Below, piece after piece: positions 46,007 to 49,993 of a stretch of DNA of 49,993 bases. A program made the position numbers and the translations under genes. Below the pieces are notes generated by a model. It made no database searches. It was given only the letters and a program-made list of their open reading frames with translations, and was not told the origin of the DNA. Within the stretch, counting starts at the first letter, position 1. Each line of letters starts with the position of its first letter. Source of the DNA: Armatimonadia bacterium (GTDB taxonomy: Bacteria; Armatimonadota; Zipacnadia; Zipacnadales; JABUFB01). Location: contig JBDKVB010000103.1 in assembly GCA_039679385.1 (NCBI GenBank), positions 1 through 49,993 on the forward strand, read 5' to 3'.

Positions 46007-46036
46007 TTGACCTGCGGCAACGCGGTGTGGTATAGT
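46007..46036 (+). promoter_or_regulatory. Promoter of the arg operon leader (extended -10)
   Basis: TTGACC (46007-46012), an 18-base spacer ending in TGTGG, and TATAGT (46031-46036) form a good sigma-70 promoter with an extended -10. The transcript would begin near 46041-46043, only a few bases before the leader-peptide ATG at 46046. Confidence 0.65.
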
Positions 46037-46045
46037 GCGCACATC

Positions 46046-46093
46046 ATGATGACGAGTGCTCTCGGCCACGAGACCCGCGCTAGGCGCAAGTAG
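46046..46093 (+). CDS. Candidate arginine leader peptide (MMTSALGHETRARRK)
   Basis: This is a 15-codon frame ending at TAG 46091. Three of the last five sense codons are arginine (CGC 46076, AGG 46082, CGC 46085), followed by AAG. It begins within a few bases of the predicted transcript start, so translation would be leaderless or nearly so. Its Arg codons overlap the 5' arm of a terminator-like hairpin (46073-46080). It lies upstream of argC, so it has the features of an attenuation peptide: scarcity of charged tRNA-Arg would stall the ribosome over the arm and favour read-through. Function is inferred, not shown. Confidence 0.5.
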   Translation: MMTSALGHETRARRK

Positions 46094-46113
46094 CACAATC
46101 TGCGCGGGTTTTT
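46073..46113 (+). terminator. Leader terminator 1 (candidate attenuator)
   Basis: The 8-bp perfect stem ACCCGCGC (46073-46080) / GCGCGGGT (46102-46109) is followed at once by a T-run (46109-46113). The loop contains the Arg codons and stop of the leader peptide. A competing stem GCGCA (46084-46088) / TGCGC (46101-46105) uses the same 3' arm, so the two folds exclude each other. Confidence 0.6.
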
Positions 46114-46134
46114 GCGAGGCACGGTGTTTGCGAT

Positions 46135-46162
46135 GCCGCCCGATCTCAGGGGTGGCTTTTTT
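46135..46162 (+). terminator. Leader terminator 2
   Basis: The stem GCCGCCC (46135-46141) / GGGTGGC (46150-46156) has one G-T pair and an eight-base loop, followed by six T (46157-46162). It is a convincing factor-independent terminator 117 bases before argC, so transcription must pass it to reach the arg genes unless a second promoter exists. Confidence 0.65.
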
Positions 46163-46278
46163 GTTATCTGCTGGTTTGCGTGCCGATGGTCCGACAGCCC
46201 GCGCATTTCGGCTTGCCGCCCACGCACCGCACGCGGTGTGACACTCGACCTTTCGCACCACCCTGGGAGGACCCTTCA

Positions 46279-47316
46279 ATGACCCGCGTTGGCATTTTCG
46301 GAGCTGCAGGATATGGCGGCGTCGACATGATCCGCCTGCTCGTCAACCATCCGCAGGCAGAGATCACCTACCTGGCTGGTCACACGACCGTGGGCGAGAA
46401 GTTCTCGGACTTGTACCCCTTCATGCTCGGCACCTGCGACCTGCCCATCGAGGAGACCTCGGTGGAGATCGCGGCTGAGAAGGCTGATGTCCTGGCCTTC
46501 GCCCTGCCGGCCGGCGCCGGTACGGAGATGATCAAGCAGGCTCTGAGCATGGGCAAGAAGGTCATCGACTTCTCCGCCGACTACCGCCTCAGGAGCGTGG
46601 CCGACTACGAAGCCTACTACGCTCCGCATCCCTGCCCAGAGCTGATCCAGCAGGCAGTCTATGGGCTGCCCGAGCTGCACCGCGAGGAGATCAAGAAGAC
46701 CCAGCTCGTGGCCGTTCCGGGCTGCTATCCAACCAGCGCCACCCTGGCTCTGGCACCGGCCGTGAAGGCCGGCATCATCGACACCAACATGGTCATCGTC
46801 GACAGCAAGTCCGGCGTCTCGGGTTCGGGGCGCTCCAAGCTCACCCTCGGCACCCACTTCGCCGAGGTCAACGAGTCGGTGCATGCCTACAACGTGGCCA
46901 TCCATCGCCACACCCCGGAGATCGAGCAGGAGCTTTCCGCGCTGGGCTCGCCGGTGAAGGCCACCTTCTCGCCGCATCTGATCCCGATGATCCGGGGCAT
47001 CCTCAGCACCTGCTATGCGCCGCTCAAGCAAGGCATGTCCGCCGCCGACGTCCTGGACATCTACCATGAGTTCTACGAGGGCGAGCCCTTCATCCGCGTC
47101 TTGCAGGAAGGCAAGCTGCCCCGAACGAAAGACACCACGGGATCGAACCGCTGCCACATCGGCATCGTCGTCGACAAGCGCTACCAGCGCCTGGTGGCCA
47201 TCGCCGCCATCGACAACCTCACCAAAGGTCTCGCTGGGGCCGCCGTTCAGTGCATGAACCTCATGCTCGGCTACCCGGAGACCATGGGCCTCGAAGGTCT
47301 CGGCATGTGGCCCTAG
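46279..47316 (+). CDS. argC: N-acetyl-gamma-glutamyl-phosphate reductase
   Basis: This 345-residue enzyme has the Rossmann start TRVGIFGAAGYGGVDMIRLL and the catalytic cysteine motif AVPGCYPTSATLAL. SGVSGSGRSKLT and the C-terminal TGSNRCHIGIVVDK fit the family. It reduces N-acetylglutamyl phosphate with NADPH. ATG 46279 follows GGGAGGACCC; the longer upstream frame is non-homologous. First structural gene of argC-argJ-argB-argD. Confidence 0.97.
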   Translation: MTRVGIFGAAGYGGVDMIRLLVNHPQAEITYLAGHTTVGEKFSDLYPFMLGTCDLPIEETSVEIAAEKADVLAFALPAGAGTEMIKQALSMGKKVIDFSADYRLRSVADYEAYYAPHPCPELIQQAVYGLPELHREEIKKTQLVAVPGCYPTSATLALAPAVKAGIIDTNMVIVDSKSGVSGSGRSKLTLGTHFAEVNESVHAYNVAIHRHTPEIEQELSALGSPVKATFSPHLIPMIRGILSTCYAPLKQGMSAADVLDIYHEFYEGEPFIRVLQEGKLPRTKDTTGSNRCHIGIVVDKRYQRLVAIAAIDNLTKGLAGAAVQCMNLMLGYPETMGLEGLGMWP

Positions 47317-47365: not shown

Positions 47366-48592
47366 ATGTCCGACTACAAAGTGATCGACGGCGGAGTACT
47401 TGCTGCCAAGGATTTTGTGGCGGCGGCCATCAACTGCGGCATCAAGAAGGACAAGCTGGACCTGGTGATGATCCACTCGCTGCGGGCGGCAGCGGCGGCG
47501 GCGACGCTCACGCGCAACAAGTTCCGGGCCGCACCGACGCAAGTGACCGAGGAGGTCGTCTCCGACGGCAATGCGCAGACCATCATCGCCAACTCCGGCA
47601 ACGCGAACTGCGCCACTGGTCAGCAGGGACTGGTCGACGCCTGGCGCATGGCTGCTCTCGCGGGTCTGGCAACGGGTGTGGAGGCCACGGAGGTCGTCGT
47701 CTGCTCCACTGGGCACATTGGCGATGCCATGCCCATGGACAAGATCGTGGCCGGAATCAGCCAGCTCGGAGGCATGCTGAGCCCCGACAACGCTGAACTG
47801 GCCGCGCGTGGCATCATGACCACGGACACCCACCCGAAGTCTTGCGCGGCTGAGTTCGAAGTGCAGGGCGTCATCTGCCGTCTTGGCGCGATTGCCAAGG
47901 GCGCCGGCATGATCCACCCGAACATGGCCACCATGCTGTGCTTCGTGTGCACCGACGTCGCCATCGACTCCGCGCTCCTGCGCATCACCTTGAAATGGTG
48001 TGTGGAGCGCAGCTTCAACTGCATCAGCGTCGACGGTGATATGAGCACCAACGACACGGTCGCGATCCTGGCCAACGGAGCCGCCGAGAACCCGACCATC
48101 GTGTACCCGGAAGACGAGGGGTACGCCAGCTTCCGCGCCGCCCTGTTGCATGTGTGCCAGGACCTGGCCAAGCAGATCGCCTTCGACGGTGAGGGCGCGA
48201 CGAAGGCCGTGACGATCGAGGTCAAGGGCGCTCGCAGCTTCGAGCAGGCACGCGCGATGGGCAAGGCGATCGCCAACTACAACCTGGTGAAGGCCATGCT
48301 CTACGGCATGGACTTCAACTGGGGCCGGGTCGCCGCCGCTATGGGCGCAAGCCTGATGGACTTCAAGCCCGAGGACGTTTCCATTGAGATGCAGGGGATC
48401 GCTGCCTGGCGCAAGGGCAATCCGGTACCCTTCGACCTCGCCACGGCACGCGAGGCACTGAAGTCGGAGGACATCCGGATCCGAGTGAACCTCGGTCAGG
48501 GCGATGCGGAGGCGACCGTCTGGACCTGCGACATCACGCCCGAGTACGTGAGCTTCAACGCGGAATACGAAAGCGCCGAGCCCACCAGCTAG
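47366..48592 (+). CDS. argJ: Glutamate N-acetyltransferase / ornithine acetyltransferase
   Basis: This 408-residue protein carries the self-cleavage site of ArgJ in GAGMIHPNMATMLCFVCTDV, where the Thr of MATM becomes the nucleophile of the beta chain. Other blocks are NSGNANCATGQQG and YGMDFNWGRVAAAMGAS. It moves the acetyl group from N-acetylornithine to glutamate, making the pathway cyclic; whether it also uses acetyl-CoA (bifunctional type) cannot be told. The gap to argC is 49 bases. Confidence 0.96.
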   Translation: MSDYKVIDGGVLAAKDFVAAAINCGIKKDKLDLVMIHSLRAAAAAATLTRNKFRAAPTQVTEEVVSDGNAQTIIANSGNANCATGQQGLVDAWRMAALAGLATGVEATEVVVCSTGHIGDAMPMDKIVAGISQLGGMLSPDNAELAARGIMTTDTHPKSCAAEFEVQGVICRLGAIAKGAGMIHPNMATMLCFVCTDVAIDSALLRITLKWCVERSFNCISVDGDMSTNDTVAILANGAAENPTIVYPEDEGYASFRAALLHVCQDLAKQIAFDGEGATKAVTIEVKGARSFEQARAMGKAIANYNLVKAMLYGMDFNWGRVAAAMGASLMDFKPEDVSIEMQGIAAWRKGNPVPFDLATAREALKSEDIRIRVNLGQGDAEATVWTCDITPEYVSFNAEYESAEPTS

Positions 48593-48681
48593 CCCCTCCT
48601 GACAGGCCGGCCGCCTCCGAACTGATCGGAGGAACGCTGAGGCCGGGGCACGGCCCGGTCCCATACCCTTCGGAGTTGAGC

Positions 48682-49557
48682 ATGGAACAGCTCAAGCAGT
48701 CGGCACAGACCCTGATCGAGGCCCTTCCTTACATCCGCCAGTGGTCGGGCAAGACCGTGGTGGTCAAGTATGGCGGCAACGCCATGACCGACGATGCGCT
48801 CAAGCGCAGTGTCGCCGAGGACCTGGTGCTGCTGCACTACGTCGGCATCAAGGTTGTTGCGGTGCACGGTGGCGGTCCGGCGATCAACTCCATGATGGAG
48901 CGCCTGGGCCTGGAGTCACGCTTCGTCGCCGGCCTGCGGGTCACCGATGCCCCGACGATGGAAGTCGCACAGATGGTGCTCGTCGGCCAGATCAACCAGG
49001 AGCTGGTGTCCCTGGTGAATGCCTGCGGCGGCAAGGCCGTCGGCCTCTCCGGCAAGGACGCCAACCTCATCCGCTGCCGCAAGATCGAGCACCCCGCGGG
49101 CGACCTGGGCTTCGTCGGCGACATCGTTTCCATGGACTGTTCCGTGATCGACACTCTCACCGATGCCGGCTACATCGTAGTGATCTCCTCGATCGGCGTC
49201 GGCGAGGAGGGAGAGAGCTACAACATCAATGCCGACACCGTCGCGGGCGATCTGGCCGGTGCGCTGAAGGCCGAGAAGCTGGTCACGCTCAGCGATGTGC
49301 GCGGCATCTTCCGCGACATCAAGGACGAATCCAGCCTCCTCAGCAAGCTGTCGCTGGAGGAAGCTCGCGAGCTGATGAAGTCCGACATCATCAGCAAGGG
49401 GATGATCCCCAAGCTGCAGAGCTGCATCGGTGCCTTGGAGAAGGGTGTCTCGCGTGCGCACATGATCGACGGCCGGGTGCCGCACGCGATCCTGATGGAG
49501 CTGTTCACCGACCAGGGCATCGGGACCATGCTCGAAGGGCAACCGAGTCCCTGGTAG
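48682..49557 (+). CDS. argB: Acetylglutamate kinase
   Basis: This 291-residue amino acid kinase has TVVVKYGGNAMTD near the N-terminus, VVAVHGGGPAINSMMERLGL, a central NINADTVAGDLAGALKAEKL and the allosteric-type LEKGVSRAHMIDGRVPHAIL end. It phosphorylates N-acetylglutamate and in such pathways is often inhibited by arginine; the N-terminal helix MEQLKQSAQTLIEALPYI is the type found in arginine-sensitive hexameric enzymes. ATG 48682 is preferred to the TTG six bases earlier. Confidence 0.96.
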   Translation: MEQLKQSAQTLIEALPYIRQWSGKTVVVKYGGNAMTDDALKRSVAEDLVLLHYVGIKVVAVHGGGPAINSMMERLGLESRFVAGLRVTDAPTMEVAQMVLVGQINQELVSLVNACGGKAVGLSGKDANLIRCRKIEHPAGDLGFVGDIVSMDCSVIDTLTDAGYIVVISSIGVGEEGESYNINADTVAGDLAGALKAEKLVTLSDVRGIFRDIKDESSLLSKLSLEEARELMKSDIISKGMIPKLQSCIGALEKGVSRAHMIDGRVPHAILMELFTDQGIGTMLEGQPSPW

Positions 49558-49629: not shown

Positions 49630-49993
49630 ATGAACACAGAGCAGATCCTTGAGCTTACGTCGCAGTACATCATGCCCACCTACGGGCGCTTGCCGATTGC
49701 TTTCGTCCGCGGCGAGGGTGCGCACCTGTGGGATGCCGAAGGCAAAGAGTACCTCGATTTTGTGGCAGGCATCGCGGTCCTCGGTGTGGGTCATTGCCAC
49801 CCGAAGGTCGTCGAGGCCATCCGCGAACAGGCCGGCCTCCTGATGCACACCTCGAACCTGTACAACATCGCCCCGCAGGCTCTGCTGGCGAAGAAGCTGT
49901 CCGAGCTCTCCTTTGGCGGGAAGACCTTCTTCTGCAACAGCGGCGCCGAGGCCAACGAGGCGGCCATCAAGCTCGCCCGCAAATGGGCACACC
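49630..49993 (+). CDS. argD: Acetylornithine aminotransferase, N-terminal part (cut by window end)
   Basis: The first 121 residues are visible and open to the end of the window. They read [43 protein letters not shown] and [20 protein letters not shown], the start of a class III PLP aminotransferase. Position after argB points to N-acetylornithine aminotransferase. The PLP lysine lies beyond the edge. Confidence 0.93.

Follow-up and report, generated by a model that had tools for sequence, protein, structure and literature searches.

The window analysed here, a stretch of 49,993 nucleotides from a Zipacnadia (Armatimonadota) genome of 5.6 Mb and 65% GC, ends within an arginine biosynthesis gene cluster, argCJBD, whose features all lie on the forward strand. 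The first gene, argC (46279–47316; TIGR01850, 418 bits), has a clear Shine-Dalgarno sequence ahead of its start at 46279; behind it come argJ (47366–48592), argB (48676–49557), and argD (49630–49992, truncated by the window end), and the identities of all four genes were confirmed. Relatives of the ArgC protein put the genome close to Candidatus Zipacnadia / WS1 within Armatimonadota. Upstream of argC, a promoter (46007–46036) with a −35 box TTGACC, an 18-nt spacer, and an extended (TG) −10 box TATAGT matches the consensus at 10 of 12 positions; it is the only sigma70-like site within 1.1 kb (0.2 expected), and similar promoters precede the related leaders described below. Nine nucleotides past it begins a 15-codon ORF (46046–46093, with ATG at 46046 and TAG at 46091–46093) encoding the peptide MMTSALGHETRARRK, which confirms the promoter and short ORF of the preliminary description. 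Leader comparison singles out four codons near its end, CGC-GCT-AGG-CGC (46076–46087), as the probable sensor; they encode R-A-R-R, and the motif RxRR is kept in relatives.

The same distance of nine bases between −10 box and ATG recurs in the other leaders of the f1 type (L003, L004, and L005). It would leave a 5′ leader of only ~2–3 bases, which is consistent with leaderless translation, and translation of the ORF in the window probably begins on an almost leaderless mRNA. The near-leaderless start proposed earlier thus suits these four leaders but not those of families f4 and f6, which have longer 5′ leaders with GGAG-type Shine-Dalgarno-like sequences. Judging from these sequences, translation of the leader is compatible with both types of start and proven by neither.

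Folding predicts a first terminator-like hairpin (46070–46113) with arms at 46070–46080 and 46102–46112 and a U-run at 46109–46113. The arginine codons had been placed inside this hairpin, and indeed the first CGC (46076–46078) belongs to its 5′ arm and AGG (46082–46084) and the last CGC (46085–46087) to its loop, but the U-run is found mainly in the family of the window, the leaders of other families having only a helix between the ORF and the linker that follows its stop codon. The ORF itself supplies the 5′ arm, which would therefore be covered by a ribosome held up at the arginine codons; this masking follows directly from the geometry, whereas the effect of such a stall on the second terminator is something we infer. 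That second terminator (46135–46162), which matches the terminator consensus, pairs GCCGCCC (46135–46141) with GGGTGGC (46150–46156) ahead of six T (46157–46162), and its hairpin is kept in 20 of 20 aligned leaders. The short competing stem noticed earlier, GCGCA (46084–46088) with TGCGC (46101–46105), does exist, but we rejected it as a general antiterminator because it is kept only in close relatives; the conserved alternative is a different stem located further downstream.

A leader ORF ending in R-[A/V/P]-R-R (GARR in G004) precedes argC in 21 of the 41 genomes of the order (Zipacnadia/WS1), with a length of 13–24 codons and the RxRR motif near its end. About half of the genomes of the order have no recognised element or lack its locus. 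The alignment of argC upstream regions, the test set in advance, bore the proposal out: families f1, f2, f4, f5, and f6 and part of f3, namely its genus g19, keep both the in-frame arginine codons and the second hairpin. The f3 genera g5, g10, and g16 have no leader upstream of argC. The N-terminal parts of the peptides are unrelated from family to family (for example MTIAFLIAKTRVRRR, MHPTSDQLWPALSAPRARR, MSYTTACHVDMESRVLRARRA, and MKYVTNNTRRPRRV) and RxRR is what they have in common; a leader in G042, of the same class, reads ...SARARCV. Codons 1 and 4 of the motif vary synonymously (CGC, CGT, CGA, or CGG), whereas 23 of the 24 Zipacnadia leaders have AGG as third sensor codon (46082–46084 in the window) and the remaining one has AGA. 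AGG accounts for 6.3% of the arginine codons in the long ORFs of the window, and its preference may reflect either a constraint on the RNA or the sensitivity of a rare codon, which are not separable here.

The Zipacnadia leaders also share two RNA elements, a GCCGCCC:GGGNGGC hairpin and a stem between GGCAY, located between linker and terminator, and RUGCC, which forms the first bases of the terminator 5′ arm. GGCAY and RUGCC are complementary in 18–20 of 20 leaders, and the pairing outlasts double changes to GGCAA:UUGCC (L026 and L119) and GGCGU:GCGCC (L114). As the lower part of the terminator cannot form alongside this pairing, the stem makes a natural antiterminator. In the window it corresponds to GGCAC (46118–46122) with AUGCC (46133–46137), sharing bases with the 5′ arm of terminator 2 (whole stem 46118–46137), and its last pair (C-A) is mismatched. 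The ORF is itself complementary to the post-stop linker, more so than to shuffled linkers (mean z −1.60 over 24 leaders), and the segments from the start codon to GGCAY fold better than controls in 20 leaders (mean z −1.74 against shuffled ORFs and −1.92 against shuffled linkers), z-scores that are not independent, the sequences within a family being related. The released-state hairpin of the window (46056–46122), hereafter the 1:2 helix, pairs the ORF at 46056–46059, 46061–46064, and 46070–46080 with the linker at 46102–46112, 46115–46118, and 46119–46122. The probability that GGCAC is paired to the ORF is 0.98, as opposed to 0.44 with a shuffled ORF, and the segment 46046–46122 folds unusually well (z −2.65 against shuffled ORFs, −2.48 against shuffled linkers); the longer stretch 46007–46200 showed no unusually stable fold (z −1.35). 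Leaders of family f6 pair their DQLWP codons (GACCAGTTGTGGCC) with the post-stop sequence GGCCACAACnGGTC, and several of them also pair ATGC(C), around the start codon, with GGCAT. In the f3 leaders L007 and L152, the hairpins equivalent to terminator 2 have poor U-tracts, so that termination there may need another factor.

Of the proposed switch in Zipacnadia, the evidence supports two parts, the helix between ORF and linker and the antiterminator stem. In equilibrium folding of the Zipacnadia leaders the terminator stays the minimum-energy structure even with a stalled ribosome masked, and the probability of the GGCAY stem before the terminator 3′ arm is made shows no consistent rise on stalling (mean 0.45 free and 0.48 stalled). 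Complementarity of the linker to the terminator was no better than chance in these leaders against shuffled controls. Minimum-energy folds had suggested an extended antiterminator that joins the linker to the terminator 3′ arm; we discarded it because it did not surpass shuffled linkers (mean z 0.04), and the linker against any downstream partner gave a mean z of 0.14 against shuffles. The default consensus structure of a MAFFT alignment was uninformative because the arms were misaligned.

A covariance model (R1) built from 15 leaders and run over the 41 whole genomes of the order matched in 19 of them, once in the source genome, and its strong matches lie before argC, with one more before argG. 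The latter, in G036 (E 1.9e-4), is a clear match upstream of a gene starting MAKELCVLAYSGGLDTSVAIKW, which encodes argininosuccinate synthase, and its leader peptide is MEHIDHIISRARRV. This occurrence before a second arginine gene was found unsought and is the strongest single support for a function in arginine control. Such a leader is not a general rule for argG: we found it only in G036, plus one doubtful ORF (L161, in G008), an arginine-rich short frame (VETRRHASRRVRAPVSPCTPHY) behind a promoter-like site that could be due to chance. For G019 and G008, the model gave weak matches (E about 0.09) that we judged from their surroundings to be chance. Most genomes of the order also have a second, more divergent argininosuccinate-synthase-like gene (e.g., G000:C77:10668). 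G031, from family f6, carries two argC copies, both matched by the model, with an f1-like leader (L005, on G031:C28) and an f6-like one (L117, on G031:C25); it seems that argC travelled along with its leader.

Arginine-codon leaders also occur in a second, Capsulimonas-like order of the phylum, represented by G057 and the single-contig 7.6-Mb genome G102, which we take to be perhaps Capsulimonas itself. There, nearly every argC has an arginine-run leader behind a promoter, with peptides such as MSFLAANNLPLRRRVRVLGNASATR, MQITQTYRRRVRRPFEVTG, MPNTIIHVERRVRRQQEAT..., and MLCKTAFRRLRRSRFAVPAAIL, and runs RRRVRR, RRRVRV, RRRLRR, RRRERR, RRRIRR, and RRLRR written with CGT and CGC codons, unlike the AGG at the third sensor codon in Zipacnadia. 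Using a fixed criterion (a TTGAC promoter followed within ~95 bases by an ORF of 8–40 codons with an arginine cluster), we detected leaders in 20 of 32 argC upstream regions in the order of the window and 10 of 15 in the second order, but 4 of 72 in the rest of the phylum and none of 74 from other phyla. Shuffling the sequences gave a mean of 0.05–0.10 per group and the reverse strand gave 0. The arginine-codon ORF is conserved in association with promoters, terminators, and arginine genes. We did not detect the repressor ArgR in any of the 41 genomes of the window's order (positive control 8 of 14) or, again with positive controls, in 119 of 121 relatives. The two exceptions both belong to family f21, whose argC upstream regions have no arginine leader by the fixed criterion, and ArgR and the arginine leader look mutually exclusive. 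The two f21 ArgR genes (G101:C8:483411 and G109:C7:59945) lie ~2.3 kb from argC. Because ArgR is nearly absent from the phylum and arginine-codon leaders recur before argC in much of it, arginine is probably measured there by the speed of the ribosome on its codons.

The locus combines a cluster of codons for the pathway end product, genes of the same pathway downstream, an intrinsic terminator, and an overlapping antiterminator. We consider it very probable that this element attenuates transcription of argCJBD through the ribosome, in response to arginine, so that the preliminary proposal largely holds, with leaders before argC in 21 genomes and also before argG. Transcription would start a few bases before the leader ATG. 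With plentiful Arg-tRNA, the translating ribosome would pass the RARR codons, terminate just after them, and leave; the ORF would then pair with the post-stop linker up to GGCAC in the 1:2 helix, which in the family of the window would be terminator 1 itself. Held in this helix, GGCAC would be unavailable for forward pairing, terminator 2 would form, and RNA polymerase would stop before argC. A shortage of Arg-tRNA would stall the ribosome on CGC, AGG, or CGC, where it would cover the ORF arm of terminator 1 and thereby free the linker; GGCAC could then pair with AUGCC and disturb terminator 2, passing the stall on as read-through into argC. The leader of G117, from the second order, is predicted to fold as a textbook attenuator: with the arginine codons masked, its minimum-energy fold combines 1:2 and antiterminator, and with the stop codon masked, 2:3 and terminator. 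Other members of the second order switch less cleanly.

A ribosome stall that sets the RNA fold could also be caused by the nascent peptide, if the RARR sequence itself arrests translation, perhaps when free arginine or an intermediate is sensed. Arginine-rich stalling peptides have precedents in the erm and speF leaders, the motif is close to the stop codon, and most Zipacnadia leaders retain a small residue (A or V). However, the distance from motif to stop varies from 0 to 3 codons and position 2 can be A, V, or P, whereas in the second order the runs RRRVRR, RRRERR, or RRLRR are followed by up to about 20 residues. Taking all leaders together, A, V, P, I, L, or E can stand between the arginine codons, and the run is followed by a stretch of variable sequence, 0 to about 20 residues long. 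That only arginine is shared while its flanks vary favours stalling dependent on tRNA charging over a specific arrest peptide, which we regard as improbable. Even less probable is direct sensing by the RNA, as a riboswitch or T-box with an incidental ORF: GCCAGGCG, CACAA, GGCAY, and GCCGCCC are conserved at the nucleotide level, but the window has no Rfam match, the arginine frame is kept through synonymous changes at positions 1 and 4, and the second order keeps arginine codons within a different RNA sequence. Least probable of all are constitutive terminators next to an accidental arginine-rich ORF, with regulation elsewhere, since, although high-GC DNA readily yields such ORFs and the folding switch is not shown thermodynamically in Zipacnadia, the leaders occur at ~100- to 200-fold the rate in shuffled DNA and the element recurs before argG.

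Attenuation by leader peptides is textbook knowledge for Trp, His, Leu, Thr, Phe, and Ile/Val, whereas arginine biosynthesis is, to our knowledge, otherwise known only under the control of ArgR or T-boxes. The attenuator that we propose shares with the trp, his, leu, and thr systems the cluster of end-product codons, the terminator before the first gene, the alternative stem, and the pairing of the ORF with post-stop sequence. It differs in its amino acid and in its phylum, in having the sensor codons at the very end of the ORF in Zipacnadia and inside the first terminator in the family of the window, and in that folding energy alone shows no switch in Zipacnadia. Leaderless polycysteine short ORFs have reportedly been described upstream of a biosynthetic operon in mycobacteria (Canestrari, in 2020, as cited by PMC13236596). 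They have in common with the leader of the window a leaderless short ORF with end-product codons before a biosynthetic operon. They concern cysteine and another lineage, and terminators are not obvious there (PMC1262725). A survey of Actinobacteria contains no RNA element for arginine and names T-boxes as the RNA control of arginine elsewhere (PMC1262725); arginine T-boxes and ArgR also act on arginine biosynthesis genes, but the window has no T-box match in Rfam and the order no ArgR. In Salmonella, consecutive arginine codons of ORF34 in the speF leader sense arginine, as established by codon replacement, and control ornithine decarboxylase (polyamine synthesis) via Rho, RNase G, and the ribosome-binding site (PMC6386406), whereas here the genes are those of arginine biosynthesis, the terminators are intrinsic, and the peptide is unrelated. 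The HIRRT-type core before ornithine decarboxylase, typical of ORF34, was not found; our leaders differ from it and precede argC or argG. Arginine goes unmentioned in a wide-ranging attenuator survey (PMC2965389), and we found no bacterial leader-peptide attenuator of arginine biosynthesis in Rfam or in the full-text literature searched, which largely leaves out subscription papers and therefore makes the novelty provisional.

A phylum nearly devoid of ArgR but endowed with arginine-codon leaders before argC would fill the arginine gap in attenuation, and the principle of attenuation would recur in a deeply branching, largely uncultured phylum. It would also provide a sequence-based arginine sensor, testable in a reporter. 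For Armatimonadota as a whole, we give an even chance to the broader idea that an undescribed arginine-codon attenuator replaces ArgR and that, in Zipacnadia, the ORF carries its sensor codons at the end and nearly all of it, in some lineages including the start codon, is the RNA arm holding back the antiterminator, so that start codon, sensor, and terminator would constitute a single compact switch.
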